Origin: a virus
Strand: one strand, 5' to 3'
Virus record (IMG/VR): IMGVR_UViG_3300044838_000066
Location: 1-50,132 of that record
Length of the DNA stretch: 50,132 nucleotides
Below the pieces are notes generated by a model. The model was not told the origin of the DNA, searched no databases, and saw only the letters and a program-made list of their open reading frames with translations. Position numbers and translations under genes: made by a program. Each line of letters opens with the position of its first letter. Within the stretch, counting starts at the first letter, position 1. This document shows positions 9,042 through 50,132 of this stretch, piece after piece.

Positions 9042-9775
9042 TCGCATACCACGGAAAACAAGAAACCAAAGACGCTGTACTCTTGCAACTGCAAGGGCAT
9101 TACGACGCGGATCAAATTATCAAGGGAACGTATTGGGAGCGCGGTAAGGGCTGCGCCGTCGGATGCACAATTCACTCATGCGAGCATGTGCAGTACGAGT
9201 CGCTTTTCGGCATTCCGCAATCCTTAGCGCGCTTGGAAGACCGCATCTTTGAGGGCCTTCCGAACGAGAAGGCCAAGGAATGGCCGCTGCGTTTCATGCG
9301 CGCGATCAAGCCCGGTTCGGACCTCTCGCTCGTGCAGTGGCAATTCCTCCGCTGGCTTATGACCGACGCCGAGGTGAATCCCGGTATCAATCACCCGCTC
9401 GTCAAAGATGTCGTGTCCAGCGTCGCAACTCTCCTCGCCGCATGGATCAAGGGTGATCCGATTGATGCGAGGTCGGCGAGGTCGACGGAGTCGGCGGAGT
9501 CGGCGGCGAGGTCGGCGAGGTCGGCGGCGGAGTCGGCGGCGTGGTCGGCGTGGTCGGCGGCGGCGGAGTCGGCGGCGAGGTCGGCGGAGTCGGCGGCGGA
9601 GTCGGCGGCGTGGTCGGCGAGGTCGGCGGCGGAGTCGGCGGAGTCGGCGGCGAGGTCGGCGAGGTCGGCGGCGGAGTCGGCGGCGGAGTCGGCGGCGTGG
9701 TCGGCGAGGTCGGCGGCGGAGTCGGCGTACGAACGCATGGCCGACAAGCTTGTGGCGTTACTGGAGGCGGCGTGA
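9038..9775 (+). CDS. Phage protein with ([E/R/W]-Ser-Ala-(Ala))n repeat
   Basis: A 245-residue protein. Residues 1-140 form a globular domain I know from many phage genomes, uncharacterised: MIAYHGKQETKDAVLLQLQ, GTYWERGKGCAVGCTIHS, EYESLFGIPQ-type segment and AKEWPLRFMRAI. Residues about 142-230 are units of ESA, RSA or WSA with an optional extra Ala, and the end (YERMADKLVALLEAA) caps them. Relatives carry similar tails of different length. The repeat should be helical with a large residue (Glu, Arg or Trp) every 3-4 positions. Function unknown. Confidence 0.85.
   Translation: MIAYHGKQETKDAVLLQLQGHYDADQIIKGTYWERGKGCAVGCTIHSCEHVQYESLFGIPQSLARLEDRIFEGLPNEKAKEWPLRFMRAIKPGSDLSLVQWQFLRWLMTDAEVNPGINHPLVKDVVSSVATLLAAWIKGDPIDARSARSTESAESAARSARSAAESAAWSAWSAAAESAARSAESAAESAAWSARSAAESAESAARSARSAAESAAESAAWSARSAAESAYERMADKLVALLEAA
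9466..9729. repeat. GCG/TCG/[GAG, AGG, TGG] codon microsatellite
   Basis: The array uses only TCG, GCG and one variable codon, GAG, AGG or TGG (Glu, Arg, Trp), in units of 9 or 12 bases; one TCG-ACG occurs near the start. Third bases are all G. It encodes the Ser-Ala tail of the protein at 9038-9775. Length variation by slippage is expected. Confidence 0.9.
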
Positions 9776-25201: not shown

Positions 25202-25804
25202 GTGAGCGTCACCGGCACCGGCGCGTCATCTCAGGCCGAGCAGACCGCGAACGGGATCGGTGCGGAGACACCCACGAACGGCTTCCTCTGGCCGAATCGA
25301 CCGAACATTATTGACTTCTGGTTTTGGTTGCAAACCAACGTCTCCATCCCGGAGGCCGCGCTTCCCGTAACGTCGCCCTATCCGCAGTACGCGCTATGGC
25401 AGGCGCTGGAACTTGTGCTGTGCGATCGCGGCGTATCGTCCTGGGCGACGAACCCGAACGGGGATAATTGCATCGCGCCAATGCCTCGGAACCTCTGGGG
25501 CGGCATTAGCTACACGCTGGCCGTCTATAATTGTGCGACACACCTTTTGCTCGGAATTGCACCGGATCAGCCGGGACAGAACTTCTTTACCGCAGCGCGC
25601 GCGAACAGCGGGTATTCACTCGTTAACCCGTCAACGGGGCTCATCGTAGCAGCATCCGATGTCACTACAAGCTCGACACTCACGCCCCCTAAATGGGCAT
25701 CTGGACTTACGGTTTCTCAGCTTGGATTCATGAAGACGCCTTACGGGCGCGAATATCTCGCTTACAATCAGGCTTATGGGCCGACAATCGTAGGACTCAC
25801 ATGA
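25202..25804 (+). CDS. Head/neck protein with one QxxQ repeat unit
   Basis: A 200-residue protein from GTG. Residues 3-22 contain TGTGASSQAEQTANGIG, one unit of the repeat found in 30447-31499 and 31951-33228. The rest (FLWPNRPNIIDFWFWLQTNV, YPQYALWQALELVL) resembles phage connector proteins. Role inferred from position. Confidence 0.65.
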   Translation: MSVTGTGASSQAEQTANGIGAETPTNGFLWPNRPNIIDFWFWLQTNVSIPEAALPVTSPYPQYALWQALELVLCDRGVSSWATNPNGDNCIAPMPRNLWGGISYTLAVYNCATHLLLGIAPDQPGQNFFTAARANSGYSLVNPSTGLIVAASDVTTSSTLTPPKWASGLTVSQLGFMKTPYGREYLAYNQAYGPTIVGLT

Positions 25805-26955: not shown

Positions 26956-28020
26956 GTGCCAAGCGCGCAAGAGGCTTCCGGCCAACAATCGGCGATCCAA
27001 TCGGCATTAGACGCGGGCCTGAATTCCATTGCTCAACGGCAACAAGTTCAGTTCCAAAAATATTCCCGCCTCGCGCTCGCGTCGGATGGAAGCGTCTTTT
27101 GGGTTGCGCAACAAGCCGTCGTTATGACCGCGATAGGATCGCTTCATTACGCGACGGACAGAGAGCAATCGGAAACCAGCACCCTCGGATTATCGGATGT
27201 GATCTTCAGCTCGGAATCTGAGATAACGCAGTTCTCGGCGATTGCTCCTGATTTTATGTGGATTGGGCGATGGGATATTCCGAACGCGCCGCCGTTGCGC
27301 GTCGCATTTTCGCACCTGGGCAACCTCTTTCGAGAGGCTGACATTTATCATTACACCGGCACGGCGATCACGGCGATCATGCTGCCGAACATCATCGACA
27401 ATCCCGCCGACATCCCCGCGGGGCCTATCGTGTCGAATAGCCTGCCGATATGGTTAGCACAGACCAATCTGACTGGACAGGCGGTGCCGATTTTCCCCAG
27501 TTTTTTGATTCCCGAAAATCTGCCTCCACCATATATCGCAGTGCATATCGAGCCGAGCATGACGGAATCATTGTCGGCTGCTCCCCTGATTGGCCCTTGG
27601 CCGGGAACGATCGAACCGAACAGCGGAGCATCGCCGCTGCACGAAATGCCCGCATCGCAGCTTTACCGCGACGAGGTAACGCTTACGCTCTACGGCTTCT
27701 CAAATCAGGCTGCTTGGCAATGGTGGGTCGCGCTCATCGAAGCATCCGCCAGCGGAACCGCGCCGTTCGGATTCGCAAACTCCCCAGCGATTCAGGATGA
27801 AAAGCATCTTTCCAGAGAATTGGCGGCAATCGCGCAAAAGAAAATCTTGCACATCAGCGCCAACTACCTCCAAGGCGCCGCCAACGCGGTAGCCCGCAGG
27901 CTCATCCTGGAAGCGATGCTCTCGGAGATTACCGTCATCGGGGGCGTGACGCCGACCGGGACAGGGGCAAGCATCCAGCCCCCGCCAATGGTATCGTCCA
28001 TGGGGAACGTGTTTGACTAG
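26956..28020 (+). CDS. Conserved phage structural protein (354 aa)
   Basis: GTG start. Features: LHYATDREQSETSTLGLSDV, IIDNPADIPAGPIVSNSLP, YRDEVTLTLYGFSNQAAWQW. It recurs in related myoviruses as an uncharacterised virion protein. The C-terminal 22 residues contain TGTGASIQPPP, a decayed unit of the QxxQ repeat. It overlaps the next gene. Confidence 0.7.
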   Translation: MPSAQEASGQQSAIQSALDAGLNSIAQRQQVQFQKYSRLALASDGSVFWVAQQAVVMTAIGSLHYATDREQSETSTLGLSDVIFSSESEITQFSAIAPDFMWIGRWDIPNAPPLRVAFSHLGNLFREADIYHYTGTAITAIMLPNIIDNPADIPAGPIVSNSLPIWLAQTNLTGQAVPIFPSFLIPENLPPPYIAVHIEPSMTESLSAAPLIGPWPGTIEPNSGASPLHEMPASQLYRDEVTLTLYGFSNQAAWQWWVALIEASASGTAPFGFANSPAIQDEKHLSRELAAIAQKKILHISANYLQGAANAVARRLILEAMLSEITVIGGVTPTGTGASIQPPPMVSSMGNVFD

Positions 28021-28309
28021 CGGCGACCGAGGGCCGGTGATCGAGATGAACGCGGGCGGATACAGCCTGATCGGATCGACTTGCACTCTGCTCGCAGCGC
28101 CGGGCAAACTCAACGTACAAGGCCCCGCGCTCTCGCTTGCGCCGATCGTGATCGCTAGCGACGGACTCACGGCATCGTACAGACAAACGGGCAGCGACTT
28201 CACGCAAGGGGGCCTTTGGGAATTCATGCTGAGAATCAAAACCGCAGACGGGCAAACGCTTCATTCCCAGAAGCGTAAGTTATACGTTTTCCCGAGATTA
28301 GGGGCATAA
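28013..28309 (+). CDS. BppU-like immunoglobulin-type domain protein
   Basis: TTG start at 28013, or GTG at 28037, or ATG at 28046 (MNAGGYSLIGSTCTLL). The whole protein is one domain also found at the C-terminus of 30447-31499: both read AGG-aromatic-x-hydrophobic-x-G-x-T, AAPG and a closing (F/W)-P-R-(I/L). It resembles baseplate BppU N-terminal domains. Start uncertain. Confidence 0.65.
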   Translation: MTSGDRGPVIEMNAGGYSLIGSTCTLLAAPGKLNVQGPALSLAPIVIASDGLTASYRQTGSDFTQGGLWEFMLRIKTADGQTLHSQKRKLYVFPRLGA

Positions 28310-30446: not shown

Positions 30447-31499
30447 ATGTCGCTGCTTCTGCTTTTTAATTCTGGCATTGCCGCTATCAGCGGAACAGCC
30501 GCGACGCGCCAAGATGACCAGCGCGTGGCGGCTTCCGGGAGCGAGATATTTTCCGCTAGTGCGGCAACGCGCCAGGATGACCAAAGGGTATCGAGTGCTG
30601 GTGCGATTGGAGAGATAGGAACCGGCGCAACCTCTCAAGATCACCAAAGAATAGCAGCGAGCGGCGTCGAGACGTTCATAGGCAGCGCATCGACAATCCA
30701 AGATCATCAGCGCGTATCGACATCGGGAAGCGAAGTCTTTGTCGGCACTGGCGCGATGCGACAGGACGAACAGCGCGTATCCGGCATTGGTCACGAAGCG
30801 TTCACCGGCAGCGGCGCGAGCATACAAGCGGAGCAAGTCGTTTCGGCTCCTGGCGAGGTCGGAGAACAGGGTACGGCAGCGACGACGCAGGCGCCCCAGG
30901 TTATCTCCGCGAGCGCGCTACAGTCGTTCATCGCGGCGGGCGCAAGCGCCCAGGATGCGCAAACTGTCGCGGCGATCGGGATCGAGGCATTCGATGGGCT
31001 AGGCGCAAGCGTGCAAGTCCCGCAGGCAATATCGGGCATCGGCGACCTCATAGAGAGCGGCACGGCGACGATCGCACAGGATGCGCAGATCGTGACCGCA
31101 TCGGGCGTCATCGGCGAGCATGGCACCGCGAACGCCGCCCAGGACGATCAGACGGTCTCCGCAACCGGCACCATGCAACCGCTTGGACTTGGCCGCGCGA
31201 TCAATATAGATGCGGGCGGCTTCGATATGATGGGTTGCACTGCGACGCTCATCGCCGCCCCCGGCCCCTTCGACGCGCAAGGCGAACCGATACGCTTGAC
31301 GCCCGTGGGTATCTTCAATAGCGGCCTTACTGCCGTCTATCGCGAGGTCGCCGACGAATTCGCGATCGGCGGAGAATGGTCGCTCCAACTTGAAGCTTTG
31401 ACCGCGACCGGCGATATGTACACCTCAGCGCCCGGCCAGGTCTTTTTTCCGAGAATTCTGGAAACTCAAGAAGAACTTGAAGGAGCACTAAGTGGCTAA
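30447..31499 (+). CDS. Eleven-repeat QDxQ protein with C-terminal BppU-like domain
   Basis: A 350-residue protein. After a hydrophobic start (MSLLLLFNSGIAAISG), residues about 16-246 are eleven consecutive 21-residue units, consensus GTAATxQDDQRVxASGxExFx. Invariant or near-invariant positions are the first Gln, the second Gln, the hydrophobic after it and a Gly. A 95-residue C-terminal domain follows, homologous to 28013-28309. It is a likely virion stalk. The repeat is dispersed in four other proteins. Confidence 0.8.
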   Translation: MSLLLLFNSGIAAISGTAATRQDDQRVAASGSEIFSASAATRQDDQRVSSAGAIGEIGTGATSQDHQRIAASGVETFIGSASTIQDHQRVSTSGSEVFVGTGAMRQDEQRVSGIGHEAFTGSGASIQAEQVVSAPGEVGEQGTAATTQAPQVISASALQSFIAAGASAQDAQTVAAIGIEAFDGLGASVQVPQAISGIGDLIESGTATIAQDAQIVTASGVIGEHGTANAAQDDQTVSATGTMQPLGLGRAINIDAGGFDMMGCTATLIAAPGPFDAQGEPIRLTPVGIFNSGLTAVYREVADEFAIGGEWSLQLEALTATGDMYTSAPGQVFFPRILETQEELEGALSG

Positions 31500-31896
31500 T
31501 ATCATTAACTTGTCCGACCTGGCGGCAAACACCGAGGCGAACGCCTTTGCGCCGCTCTTGAACGCGGGCCTCATTGAGATTTTCACCGGCACGCAGCCTG
31601 CGAACGCGAACACGGCACTTAGCGGCAATACGTTGCTTGCTACCTTGACCTTCGCGAATCCGGCATTTGCGACGGCCGTCGCTAGTGTTATCACGGCGAA
31701 TGCGATCGCGAGCGGAACGGCAGTAGCGACGGGCACGGCGACATTCGCGCGCCTGTACAAGAGCGACGGAACGACGGTCGTAGGTGATATAGCGGTCGGT
31801 ACGAGCGGTGCGGGCCTCAATCTCAATACGACGAGCATTGTCACGGGCGGATTAGTGTCGGTCACAAGTTACACCCATACGGTTACGGAGACTTAG
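31492..31896 (+). CDS. Phage virion protein, fibre accessory type (134 aa)
   Basis: GTG start overlapping the previous gene by 8 bases. Beta-rich, with LLNAGLIEIFTGTQPANANT, LLATLTFANPAF, ATFARLYKSDGTTVVGDI and a Thr/Ser-rich end. It resembles small conserved proteins of fibre clusters. Role unknown. Confidence 0.65.
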   Translation: MANIINLSDLAANTEANAFAPLLNAGLIEIFTGTQPANANTALSGNTLLATLTFANPAFATAVASVITANAIASGTAVATGTATFARLYKSDGTTVVGDIAVGTSGAGLNLNTTSIVTGGLVSVTSYTHTVTET

Positions 31897-31950
31897 TAGG
31901 TAGTATAGCGAGCGGTATTTATTCTCCATAAGCGCTAGAGGCGGGGAGCT

Positions 31951-33228
31951 ATGAGCATTCAAGCCGAGCAAGCCGTCTCAGGCGTCGGCGTCGTTGAGGC
32001 GCGTGGTACGGGCGCGTCGACACAGGCGGAGCAAACGGTTCTGAGTGCTGGCGGTGAGCCTTACGGGGCGACGCGCCAGGACGATCAGCGCGTATCGGCA
32101 AGCGGCACTACAGGTCAGACGGGCACCGGCGACACGGCGCAGGCTCCGCAGACGGCCGGCAGCGTCGCCGCGGTCGGCGTTAGTGGTACTGCCGCGATCG
32201 CGCAGGACGATCAGCGTCTTTCCGCGTCCGGCGTAACGACATCGGCAGGCACGGTTCAGCGATCCCAGGCCGTCGCCGGCGTTGGCTTCGTAAGCTCATC
32301 CTCATCGGCGCAAGGCGCGCAGACGGTCGCCGCATCGGGCACCTTCGAAACTGTCGGCGGCGTCGGCGCGACGACGCAGGGCGAGCAAATCGTCGTTGCG
32401 CGCGGATTCGAGACGTTCACCGGCACGGGATCATCGACGCAGGACGAGCAGCGTATTGCATCTTCCGGGCAACTGCTCATCAGCGGCAGCGCGGCAACCT
32501 CGCAGGACGCGCAGCATGTCGCCGCTGCCGGAATTGAAGCGTTTCGCGGGGTAGGCGCAAGCGCCCAGGCGGAGCAGACGGTATCGGCAACAGGGGCCGG
32601 CTATCGGTTCAATACCGGCCCCGCAGCGCCGGTTCAGGCACCCCAGGCCGTTACCGCCGCCGGGGTCTTCGTCGCGCCAAGCGGACCCGCGACTCCCGCG
32701 CAGGCACCGCAAGTAGCCAGTGGCACCGGCTCATTCACGATCAGGGGCACCGCCTCGCCGCGCCAGGATAGGCAGCGGGTATCGGCAAGGGCCGTCCAAA
32801 CGCTCCCAGGCGTCTCATCAATCGCGCAAACGCCCCAAACTACACGCGCCCTCGGCAACGTCGCCGGGCCTCCGGTAACGGGCACGGGAGCATCGTCGCA
32901 GGATGCTCAGACCGCATCGGGCAGCGGCAATCTGCGGTATGCGGCAGTGGGCGATTCCACGCAAGCCCCGCAAACCGCGATCGGCTCAGGCGCACTCACC
33001 ATAGTTGCACGTGGAACATCGACGCAGGCCCCGCAGACGGCTTCCGGGATCGGCCAAACCTTCGCGGGCGTCGGCGCTAGCTCCCAAGCGACGCAGACAG
33101 CGAAGGGCACCGGCAACATGGGCGAAGTCGTCTGCGTTCGCCTGCCGATCATGGCGATTACCCGAATCACGCTGCCGATTACACCGCCGCACGAATGCCC
33201 ACGCAATGTGACGTTATCGCGTGGCTAG
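31951..33228 (+). CDS. QDxQ/QAxQ repeat protein with about 19 units
   Basis: A 425-residue protein with GGGGAG before the ATG. It consists almost wholly of 18-24-residue units such as GTGASTQAEQTV and GSAATSQDAQHVAAAG, with more length variation than in 30447-31499. A short unique end (CVRLPIMAITRITLPI) has no repeat. The regular hydrophobic/Gln/Gly spacing suggests a beta-solenoid or extended fibre. A terminator follows. Confidence 0.8.
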   Translation: MSIQAEQAVSGVGVVEARGTGASTQAEQTVLSAGGEPYGATRQDDQRVSASGTTGQTGTGDTAQAPQTAGSVAAVGVSGTAAIAQDDQRLSASGVTTSAGTVQRSQAVAGVGFVSSSSSAQGAQTVAASGTFETVGGVGATTQGEQIVVARGFETFTGTGSSTQDEQRIASSGQLLISGSAATSQDAQHVAAAGIEAFRGVGASAQAEQTVSATGAGYRFNTGPAAPVQAPQAVTAAGVFVAPSGPATPAQAPQVASGTGSFTIRGTASPRQDRQRVSARAVQTLPGVSSIAQTPQTTRALGNVAGPPVTGTGASSQDAQTASGSGNLRYAAVGDSTQAPQTAIGSGALTIVARGTSTQAPQTASGIGQTFAGVGASSQATQTAKGTGNMGEVVCVRLPIMAITRITLPITPPHECPRNVTLSRG

Positions 33229-33317: not shown

Positions 33318-33983
33318 ATGAAACCTACCACGGCAACGAGTGCCGGTCCTACAACTTCTTCCCGGTTCGCGCATCTCGGCGACGACATGTACGGGATGCT
33401 CCCCGTCGCATGGGCTCCAAAGATGCGCGGACTGAAGGTTATCGTCTTCTGGATTCTTTGCGCACATGCCAATGAGGACGGCATATGCTTTCCGAGCCGG
33501 AAAACGATAGCGCGATTAGCGGGAATCCATGTAAGTCACGTTACGCCGGCTCTTCGAGAACTTGAGGCGATGGGGGCGATTGAGACTGCGCCCGCCGTAG
33601 GGCACTCCTCGCATTATCGCATCATGCCTCCCCCTCCATATAAGGTATCATCTAATTCAGATAAGACCCCTCCATGTGAGGTGTTATCCGAATTAGATAA
33701 CACAGTCTTACCTGATTTAGATAAGGGGGTGTTATCCGAATCAGGTAAGGGGGGCTTATCTGAATCAGATAACCATAACAGACCAGGTAACATACCTATG
33801 GACATATTTTTTAACAAACCAGCCGACGCGCCCAAAAAAAACGGAGAGAATCCTGTGGAAAAACGAAATGACGACCGCTTACGCGCGATTCCCAAACCGC
33901 CGAAGCCGACGCAGCCCCTCAATGCCGAAGCCGTCGCCCGCGCGAACGCGATACGCACCGGACAGATGAAAGGCACCGCCTAA
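33318..33983 (+). CDS. Winged-helix replication-initiator-like protein with intragenic iterons
   Basis: A 221-residue protein with GGAG upstream. Residues about 28-105 match the HTH_36 class: WAPKMRGLKVIVFWILCAHA, GICFPSRKTIARLAGIHVSH, VTPALRELEAMGAIE. Such domains occur in plasmid and phage replication initiators. Residues about 110-152 are an 8-residue repeat (VLSELDNT, VLPDLDKG, VLSESGKG, GLSESDNH) created by five DNA palindromes. The C-terminus is basic and Pro-rich. It stands alone between two terminators in the virion region, so it is a separate unit. Confidence 0.7.
   Translation: MKPTTATSAGPTTSSRFAHLGDDMYGMLPVAWAPKMRGLKVIVFWILCAHANEDGICFPSRKTIARLAGIHVSHVTPALRELEAMGAIETAPAVGHSSHYRIMPPPPYKVSSNSDKTPPCEVLSELDNTVLPDLDKGVLSESGKGGLSESDNHNRPGNIPMDIFFNKPADAPKKNGENPVEKRNDDRLRAIPKPPKPTQPLNAEAVARANAIRTGQMKGTA
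33648..33772. repeat. Five 17-bp palindromic iterons
   Basis: Consensus TTATCTGAATCAGATAA at 33648, 33684, 33708, 33732 and 33756, spaced 36, 24, 24 and 24. Copy 2 extends to 8-bp arms (GTGTTATC/GATAACAC, 33681-33703). Each unit is a near-perfect dyad. They lie in the coding region of the HTH gene. A candidate origin or autoregulatory array. Confidence 0.75.
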
Positions 33984-45149: not shown

Positions 45150-46031
45150 ATGGCTAATCGCGCGACGCAGGTCTCCGCGTTTCTTGAATCGAGCGCGTCG
45201 CCGCACATTCGCGCGACGCAGGTCTCCGCGTTTCTTACCGCTCAAACTAGCGCGGGAGCGACGATTCAAGATGCGCAGCGCGTATCAGCTATCGGCGCCG
45301 AGTCGTTCAGCGCCAGTGCCGCGACGCGACAGGACGATCAGCATGTATCTGCGAGCGGAAAGGCTCTCGGGCCAAAGCCGACGCCTAACCCTGCTCCCGT
45401 GTGGCCTACGCCGCTTACCGAGATATTAAAAGCCTATCCGTATGTGCAATATCAAGACGATCCGAACATCGTCGCGTTCTTCAGCGCGTACAATATCATT
45501 GCGCAGTCCTATCTTGACTGGTTCAATGAAACGCCGCTCGCACTATACACGAACCCGAACGTGAACGGACAACTCCTCGATTGGATCGGCCAAGGAATAT
45601 ACGGCATACCGCGTCCCGTGTTCTCCACGCTTGCGAAGCATATCATCGTCGCGAATATCGACGGCATTCCGCTAGACACAATGGAGATCGACGGCAGCAG
45701 TTTCTTCGAGACGGGGACTGCTGTCACGGCGAACGATGATTTTTACAAGCGCGTGATTACATGGCTTACATACATCTGCGACGGGCGCATGACGAACGCG
45801 AACGTGATACGCAAGCGCGTCGCGCGCTTTCTCTACGGCGTCAACGGCACGGATATCACCGCAACGCAGGCGCAGGCCGTGAGCGTCGCGGTTGTCACGT
45901 CGCCGAGTCTATCGTATGCGATCACGGTACCGTCGTCGGCGAATCCGGCATCGACGTACTTCCAGGATGCATTTAATTCTGGTACGTTATCTTTTCCCTT
46001 CCAACTCTCCGCAACTGTGAGCATAGTTTGA
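45150..46031 (+). CDS. Baseplate protein, DUF2612 type, with QDxQ N-terminus
   Basis: A 293-residue protein. Residues 4-36 contain RATQVSAFL twice, from an exact 28-bp DNA repeat (45158-45185, 45209-45236), then two QDxQ units (IQDAQRVSAIG, RQDDQHVSASG). Residues about 90-293 are DUF2612 (YPYVQYQDDPNIVAFFSAYN, GQLLDWIGQGIYGI). The repeat arm may dock with other repeat proteins. Confidence 0.75.
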   Translation: MANRATQVSAFLESSASPHIRATQVSAFLTAQTSAGATIQDAQRVSAIGAESFSASAATRQDDQHVSASGKALGPKPTPNPAPVWPTPLTEILKAYPYVQYQDDPNIVAFFSAYNIIAQSYLDWFNETPLALYTNPNVNGQLLDWIGQGIYGIPRPVFSTLAKHIIVANIDGIPLDTMEIDGSSFFETGTAVTANDDFYKRVITWLTYICDGRMTNANVIRKRVARFLYGVNGTDITATQAQAVSVAVVTSPSLSYAITVPSSANPASTYFQDAFNSGTLSFPFQLSATVSIV

Positions 46032-46225
46032 TGAATATCAACGAGAAAATCAACAGCGCAAAGGCATACATGGATACGCTCACGCAGCAGGTCAGGAGCC
46101 TAGAGGCGGAGTCTGCTGGGATCGCGCAACGGCTGAAAGTGATTCTCTTTTCCCTTGCGCGCGTAGAAGGCGGCATCATCGCGCTCGAAGAGTTGAAGGC
46201 CGATCTGGATAAAGAGGTCATTTAA
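46031..46225 (+). CDS. Coiled-coil tail protein (64 aa)
   Basis: MNINEKINSAKAYMDTLTQQ, then LEAESAGIAQRLKVILFSLA: one coiled coil. The ATG overlaps the upstream TGA and it shares TAATG with the fibre gene. Perhaps a fibre adaptor or chaperone. Confidence 0.65.
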   Translation: MNINEKINSAKAYMDTLTQQVRSLEAESAGIAQRLKVILFSLARVEGGIIALEELKADLDKEVI

Positions 46226-47397
46226 TGTCATTGTACGCTTTTGCAAATAATGTTAAGACCACCTTAGCGGGAGCGATTAGCTCAACGGCGACGACGATCA
46301 CGCTCGCATCGTCCGCGAACTTTCCCACGATCCCCGCAGGGTACGTATGGGCCGTAACACTTAACGACCTCGCAACGCAAACGCTCTACGAAATCGTCTA
46401 TGTTACCGCGAACTCGGGAAGCAATTTGACATGCCTACGCGGGCAAGAAGGCACGAGTGCACGTGCTTGGAACGTCGGGGACATCGTTTTCGCTGCCGAC
46501 ACCGCGGGCATTCTTTCCTCATTCGTAAACCAAACGCAACTCGCAAATACCGTCCAACTGAATCCCGCTTCTCAGCAGAGCGGATCGATCAATATCTCCG
46601 GCTCCGCGTCCTTTGGCGCGAACGTCGCGGCGAATGGAAACCTATCTCTCGGCGGCGCGATCACGAATGCAACGACGGGAAACTTCAGCGGGCAAACAAC
46701 GGCACTCAGCTTCTTCGCATCGCAACCGTACACGAATCGCACGATAGCGGGCCTGCATATTGGATTCTTCGGCGGCGCATCGTACACGGGACTAGGTCCT
46801 TCGATCGGCCTATCGTCTCGCGGTATCACCGCCAGTATGCTTGCGATCGGATCCGTGGGAACCGGCGCGCTCGTCGCGATCGACACGAGCGGCAACGTCG
46901 CCGCATCGGGTAGTTTTTACGGGCAGAATGGAGCATTCAGCGGCGCGGTCTTCCAGGGTAGCGATCAAGTCGTAAGCACGCTTACATCTTCAACTTTGTC
47001 TCTGTCGAAAAGTGGCGGTAATTATGCAATTAACTATACGCCTCCGTCGCAGTTTCCCGTAGGCACGACGTTCATAAACGACGGCAACGGCGGCAACCCA
47101 TCGTTTTCAATTCCCAATTATGGACAGTGGTTCATCGAGGTCTTCTACGGCGTGCAAGAGACGAGCAACACGAACATGACCATCACGCTCGCGCTCATCG
47201 GCGGAACGATGACGGGCGGGTTCTTGACGAACGCAAACGGGCATACCGCCTTCAATGCCGAGAGCATCATCATGGTGTATGGCAAGGGGCGCACAACGGC
47301 AAACAATCAAACGGTGACGTTCGCCTTGACGGCGACCGGCGGTTCATTCGATCCCTCGAATCAGCCTTGGACGGTGCGTGCAACGCGCTATAACTAG
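46225..47397 (+). CDS. Tail fibre protein (390 aa)
   Basis: N-terminal attachment-like region (FANNVKTTLAGAISSTATTI, RGQEGTSARAWNVGDIVFAA), then a Gly/Ala/Ser-rich shaft and a C-terminal beta domain (QWFIEVFYGVQETSNTNMTI). It is the last forward gene and converges, by 4 bases, with the methyltransferase gene. Confidence 0.8.
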   Translation: MSLYAFANNVKTTLAGAISSTATTITLASSANFPTIPAGYVWAVTLNDLATQTLYEIVYVTANSGSNLTCLRGQEGTSARAWNVGDIVFAADTAGILSSFVNQTQLANTVQLNPASQQSGSINISGSASFGANVAANGNLSLGGAITNATTGNFSGQTTALSFFASQPYTNRTIAGLHIGFFGGASYTGLGPSIGLSSRGITASMLAIGSVGTGALVAIDTSGNVAASGSFYGQNGAFSGAVFQGSDQVVSTLTSSTLSLSKSGGNYAINYTPPSQFPVGTTFINDGNGGNPSFSIPNYGQWFIEVFYGVQETSNTNMTITLALIGGTMTGGFLTNANGHTAFNAESIIMVYGKGRTTANNQTVTFALTATGGSFDPSNQPWTVRATRYN

Positions 47398-50012: not shown

Positions 50013-50119
<107 letters not shown>

Positions 50120-50132
50120 TCGCCGGAGCCGG

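Follow-up and report, generated by a model that had tools for sequence, protein, structure and literature searches.

A 21-residue repeat, the QxxQ unit, forms tandem arrays in two accessory virion proteins of a single phage and occurs in one or two copies on three more of its virion proteins. Judged from sequence, it is an old, protein-level module of phage virion accessory proteins that belongs to no named family, and this module is probably a stalk: we give a probability of about 0.5 to the reading that the arrays build a modular stalk, rich in beta structure, for accessory adhesins, and that neck and baseplate proteins carry appended single units. How new phage adhesins, which are constantly swapped, find their place on the virion is poorly known, and a variable-number protein repeat on both accessory adhesion-type and baseplate proteins provides a testable case of modular stalk building, possibly with docking by matched repeats. 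The family is unnamed in Pfam and PHROGs, default BLAST filtering probably hides such repeats, and a literature search for this one found no description.

The repeat unit and its distribution

The window, by which we mean the whole stretch of 50,132 nucleotides analyzed here, is an IMG/VR virus record (IMGVR_UViG_3300044838_000066), and its genes are named below by their coordinates. As originally predicted, 30447-31499 contains 11 QxxQ units at a spacing of exactly 21 residues; the longest QxxQ run in 10,000 shuffles of this protein was 2. The predicted set of about 19 looser units in 31951-33228 was likewise recovered, with 19 QxxQ units counted (spacing mostly 18-24 residues) and 17 scoring as HMM domains. 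Two further units lie 63 nt apart in 45150, and one is N-terminal in 25202. A profile search with the unit, using a 21-position HMM trained on 52 units that all came from other phages and none from the window, returned precisely these four window genes, with E-values of 1.7e-32 (30447), 1.2e-25 (31951), 1.4e-7 (45150), and 7.5e-4 (25202); across the remaining window ORFs nothing rose above noise (next best E 1.2; shuffled ORFs at best 0.58). The copy ending 26956-28020, which had been called decayed, does not score by itself, and its identity is upheld by intact orthologous copies (GTGASTQAPQTASGVGSVYE and GTGASTQAEQTALGVGSVYE) at the same place in two relatives.

Across 32 window units, the conserved positions are G1, A4, Q7, Q10, V12, A14, and G16 (the register was set on the two Q, which makes them invariant); G16 is kept in 29 units, and G1, A4, V12, and A14 are strongly kept, which gives the consensus G-T-[GA]-A-x-x-Q-x-x-Q-x-V-x-A-x-G. 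The residue after the first Q is D in 16 units and A in 11; because D is only about half conserved, QxxQ is a better name for the unit than QDxQ. The earlier label DUF2612 for the 45150 protein rests on GenBank, where a 30%-identical protein of Pantoea phage PdC23 is so annotated; the Pfam scan did not return the family, and we write DUF2612-like. The features discussed are as follows.

25211-25273 (+): one QxxQ unit, TGTGASSQAEQTANGIGAETP, N-terminal in 25202-25804, a neck-region protein (phrog_6356); kept in two relatives
27958-28017 (+): C-terminal unit of 26956-28020 (phrog_6359), decayed here; orthologous unit intact in L062 and L061
28013-34756 (+): accessory virion cassette, from the 26956 gene to the tail sheath gene (34763); absent from PdC23, with corresponding cassettes in L008, L061, and L062
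28013-28309 (+): first cassette gene, a 98-residue protein paralogous to the 30447 C-terminal domain (tblastn self-match and alignment)
30447-31499 (+): array protein 1, with a short MSLLLLF N-terminus, 11 units, and an Ig/BppU-like C-terminal domain
30489-31181 (+): the eleven 21-residue units of 30447 (QxxQ spacing, codons, shuffles, HMM)
31179-31496 (+): BppU/Ig-like beta-sandwich domain and acidic tail (Foldseek), a candidate virion-attachment domain
31492-31896 (+): phrog_3758, "virion structural protein" (E 6.6e-30)
31951-33228 (+): array protein 2, with about 19 looser units (QxxQ spacing and HMM; homologues with 1 and 12 units), then a conserved tail, NMGEVVCVRLPI..ITLPITPPHEC
45150-45230 (+): 51-bp RATQVSAFLESSASPHI repeats, N-terminal in the DUF2612-like protein; one more copy in L009
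45246-45371 (+): pair of QxxQ units carried by the DUF2612-like protein of the baseplate (phrog_8212)
46225-47397 (+): tail-fibre protein (phrog_8469), whose N-terminal anchor is 80% identical to L062 11435-11743, where it heads a tailspike gene in the G001 cassette

No PHROG family matched 30447 or 31951; the array of the related locus L008 touches phrog_34844 (unknown function) over 22 residues; a PDB sequence profile search found nothing for the array and only noise for the 30447 C-terminal domain. Searches of phage records by tblastn returned nothing for the array proteins, a result that is uninformative since it is most likely due to the low-complexity filter, which is also the probable reason why the L008 array found nothing even at E 10. 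Short exact peptide patterns had no relative in host genome contigs, and the exact variant GAxxQAPQTA occurred in only two IMG/VR contigs, both of the window's group.

Age and copy number of the repeat

The 30447 units are saturated at synonymous sites, with codons shared between units at the same residues at a rate of 0.384 against 0.377 expected from codon usage; in the other genes and between genes, the excess is small to moderate (0.43-0.48 vs 0.37-0.39, a range taken from comparisons with at least 84 shared residues). Because amino acids are shared between the 30447 units while their synonymous sites are saturated, the repeat is old and has been kept as protein. The single unit of 25202 is conserved together with the remainder of its gene across three phages. 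We therefore find no support for a recently mobile DNA repeat inserted into genes, nor for a recombination-driven tag in so far as it meant recent DNA movement.

Copy number varies among relatives. Arrays of the 30447 type have 1, 1, or 11 units and those of the 31951 type 1, 12, or 19. The 25202-, 26956-, 30447-, and 31951-type genes carry one unit each in G001, and 1, 1, 1, and 12 in G003; G002 has one 7-unit gene and no units in its 25202 and 26956 homologues. The unit is absent from the 25202 homologue of L008 and from the C-termini of the 26956 homologues of L008, L013, L018, L024, and PdC23. Of 27 related loci, the window and L009 alone have units in the DUF2612-like protein.

The N-terminus of that protein also carries the adjoining 51-bp RATQVSAFLESSASPHI (RATQ) repeats, which differ from the QxxQ unit and represent a recent DNA repeat. 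L009, 98.9% identical to the window over 4810 bp, has one additional copy (window 45150-45230 vs L009 1402-1560), which is strain-level copy-number variation at a baseplate protein N-terminus. This difference between two nearly identical phages is the kind of event expected if unequal exchange simply extends the ends of virion proteins by repeats that are tolerated, most copies being neutral spacers with no specific function, and the wide variation in array numbers, the DUF2612-like homologues that do without units, and the decay of the 26956 unit fit such accretion as well. Synonymous saturation and the conservation of G1, A4, V12, A14, and G16 over the 32 window units nevertheless need long purifying selection, and the 25202 unit has been kept in three phages, so that we regard repeat accretion as unlikely.

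An accessory cassette between neck and tail sheath genes

The window phage has a contractile tail (sheath gene 34763, phrog_205), the gene order of PdC23, and a capsid protein 37-50% identical to proteins of Shewanella, Klebsiella, Yersinia, Pantoea, and other phages. A 6.7-kb cassette contains both array genes; in PdC23, the 26956 homologue is followed directly by the gene in the sheath position. A self-match at 27932-28300 was considered as read-through of 26956 into 28013 and rejected, since its frame is that of 28013 and not of 26956. The phrog_3758 family is filed under "head and packaging", yet it stands among tail genes in several phages; the succession of phrog_3758 and a repeat or short-motif gene recurs in the environmental contig L037 and in Vibrio phages. 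A gene placed between those of the virion cassette and those of the tail (33318-33983; phrog_270, HTH_36) encodes a replication-initiation-like HTH protein and contains a 24-base tandem repeat at 33684-33772.

In the 30447 homologues of L007 and L061, the C-terminal domain and one unit are kept, while the array has given way to another repeat of about 21 residues, ASDSxxAWSDSxSR (L007 7736-10636; a 1044-residue ORF in L061), plus added N-terminal sequence. As hhalign found no relation between the L007 ASDS repeat and the QxxQ unit, we do not take the shared period of about 21 as homology. The G001 and G003 homologues have about 400-450 residues of N-terminal beta-rich sequence and another repeat of about 21 residues. 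In G001, the tail-fibre gene lies within the cassette, its body bearing a pectate-lyase-like domain, and the examined stretch downstream of the DUF2612-like gene, its usual place, had no fibre-anchor match; parts are thus exchanged between the cassette and the tail-fibre locus (cf. PMC10276861). At L062 11417-13750, the fibre anchor with its pectate-lyase-like tailspike body has left its site after the DUF2612-like gene and now lies in the cassette between neck and sheath.

As for the record itself, bases 1-107 recur at 50013-50119, so it is probably a circular or terminally redundant complete assembly. A GCCGGA hexamer array is present at both ends (68-455 and 50080-50132), and positions 9467-9727 form a tandem array rich in GC, with periods of 21 and 33 bases.

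Predicted structure and a putative stalk

AlphaFold2 (AF2) models of the tandem units are beta-rich. The window 30447 protein gave about three short strands per unit in a weak model (pLDDT 62, pTM 0.48), whereas 14 units of the environmental contig L053, modelled in alignment with window units, gave a more regular one (pTM 0.67, pLDDT mostly 70-82 mid-model) with about three five-residue strands per 21 residues. The Foldseek neighbours of the L053 model were mostly beta-solenoids among the PDB entries listed, none of them significant, the best being the RTX-type solenoid 3p4g (TM 0.50). Left-handed beta-helices (LpxD, GlmU) and 3p4g, a class represented among these neighbours, share about three strands per coil with the model, but there is no significant E-value or sequence relation, and the predicted coil has 21 residues here vs 18; as a family assignment, the left-handed beta-helix was rejected, since the unit consensus lacks the hexapeptide repeat [LIV]-G-x4 and there is no Pfam match. 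Tandem repeats are prone to being wrongly predicted as beta-solenoids by AF2 (PMC11795689), so we treat the fold as a hypothesis. Structure prediction yields a solenoid with modest confidence.

That bias, together with the low-complexity composition that probably emptied the tblastn array searches, would suit a flexible linker or surface coat, intrinsically disordered and rich in glycine and polar residues. Against disorder, which we consider improbable, speaks a strict 21-residue phase in which Q and G are strongly conserved and V12 alternates with A14, kept in imperfect repeats and matched in phase by unrelated phages. In less related environmental contigs there are GTLAETQDDQTSTASGT-type arrays, and the GTLAETQDDQTxxASGT-type tandem repeats of L037, L045, and L051-L054 place Q..Q and ASG as the window unit does. 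The L037 units match the window units with a profile probability of 96, and in L037, as in the window (31492, then 31951), the repeat gene comes after a phrog_3758 gene; however, the L037 period is 24, the environmental repeats are joined to other N-terminal domains, and the phages are otherwise unlike the window so far as the comparison went. More distantly, a GQAAIDEQPDELTASGTLTNS repeat protein of Vibrio phage 367.14 also follows phrog_3758, has a 21-residue period, and is matched by a mixed unit model that included one 367.14-type row, but its motif is QPD (EQPD variant) rather than QxxQ, and its profile match to the window units is weak (probability 20).

The C-terminal domain of 30447 offers a possible attachment point. 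By fold it matches the BppU N-terminal domain, with several BFVD matches named BppU at Foldseek probability 1.00, and the Ig-like attachment domain of the R4C adaptor (8gtd_M); it differs from both in being attached to a repeat array, and Pfam profiles found no family in 30447 or in this domain, and so no BppU sequence match.

Taken with the cassette, these models suggest that each unit could form one coil or structural repeat of a rod rich in beta structure; its likeliest fold is a beta-solenoid in which every 21 residues supply three short strands. At about 4.8 A per coil, the stalk would be about 5 nm long with 11 units and 9 nm with 19. In 30447, the Ig/BppU-like domain probably fixes this putative stalk to the virion, while the relatives that combine other repeats of about 21 residues with a large N-terminal beta-rich part at the same position may display something resembling a distal, ligand-facing end. 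The solenoid fold, the stalk role, presence in virions, and host adhesion are what we infer; the repeat itself, its distribution and age, the variable array length, the place in the cassette, and the exchange of modules are shown. The adhesion cassette gains, loses, and swaps repeat blocks, which would tune stalk length and exchange the distal part. At the ends of neck and baseplate proteins, the single or double units would be appended copies, possibly capping or extending their carriers. Stalk length does not explain the role of these single units, and the "head and packaging" filing of phrog_3758, the empty PDB sequence search, and the weak window model also count against a stalk.

Matched repeats and docking

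In a docking code, units of different proteins in one virion would stack end to end, and single or double units would seat the array proteins. Curli provide the analogy: CsgA and CsgB have units of about 20 residues with conserved Q and G, common to subunit and nucleator, and the CsgB repeats nucleate CsgA. CsgA (8c50) is a weak Foldseek neighbour of the unit model, and no sequence relation to it was seen.

Besides the presence of the same unit on five proteins of one phage, the Vibrio phages CKB-S1, VP16T, and 367.14 favour docking: their Mu gp48-like baseplate protein and the protein neighbouring phrog_3758 have a short motif in common (AGEALAQAGEP, NAGEALAQCGEP, or MQDGxxxAQDG, different in each group, with the CKB-S1/VP16T group distinct from 367.14). 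Local alignment of the partners gave z of 7.7 (CKB-S1), 9.5 (VP16T), and 6.4 (367.14) against shuffles, 367.14 being the weakest case (shuffle maximum 80 vs 89 observed), and an A/C change between CKB-S1 and VP16T occurs in both partners (AQAGEP/AEAGEP vs AQCGEP). Against docking, the Vibrio cases number only three, of which two come from related phages, the 26956 unit is decayed in the window, the DUF2612-like proteins of G001, G002, and G003 have no units, and G002 has a 7-unit protein beside unit-free 25202 and 26956 homologues. We thus find docking rather unlikely. Of the originally proposed shared docking or fibre module, a module shared by several virion proteins is supported, more stalk-like than tag-like, with docking or co-assembly as a possible role. 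A more general form, a like-with-like assembly code in which one repeat family occurs both on a fibre-accessory protein and on its receiving protein in the baseplate or neck, appears quite unlikely; in that case, the family may be swapped in concert between phages (QxxQ here; QDG or AGEALAxAGEP in Vibrio phages), and matching repeats would let new adhesins be plugged into the virion. The motif AGEALAxAGEP / NAGEALAQCGEP was seen in two tail proteins each of the Vibrio phage loci L038 (5411-6076 and 7269-8000) and L064 (5412-6077 and 7267-7989).
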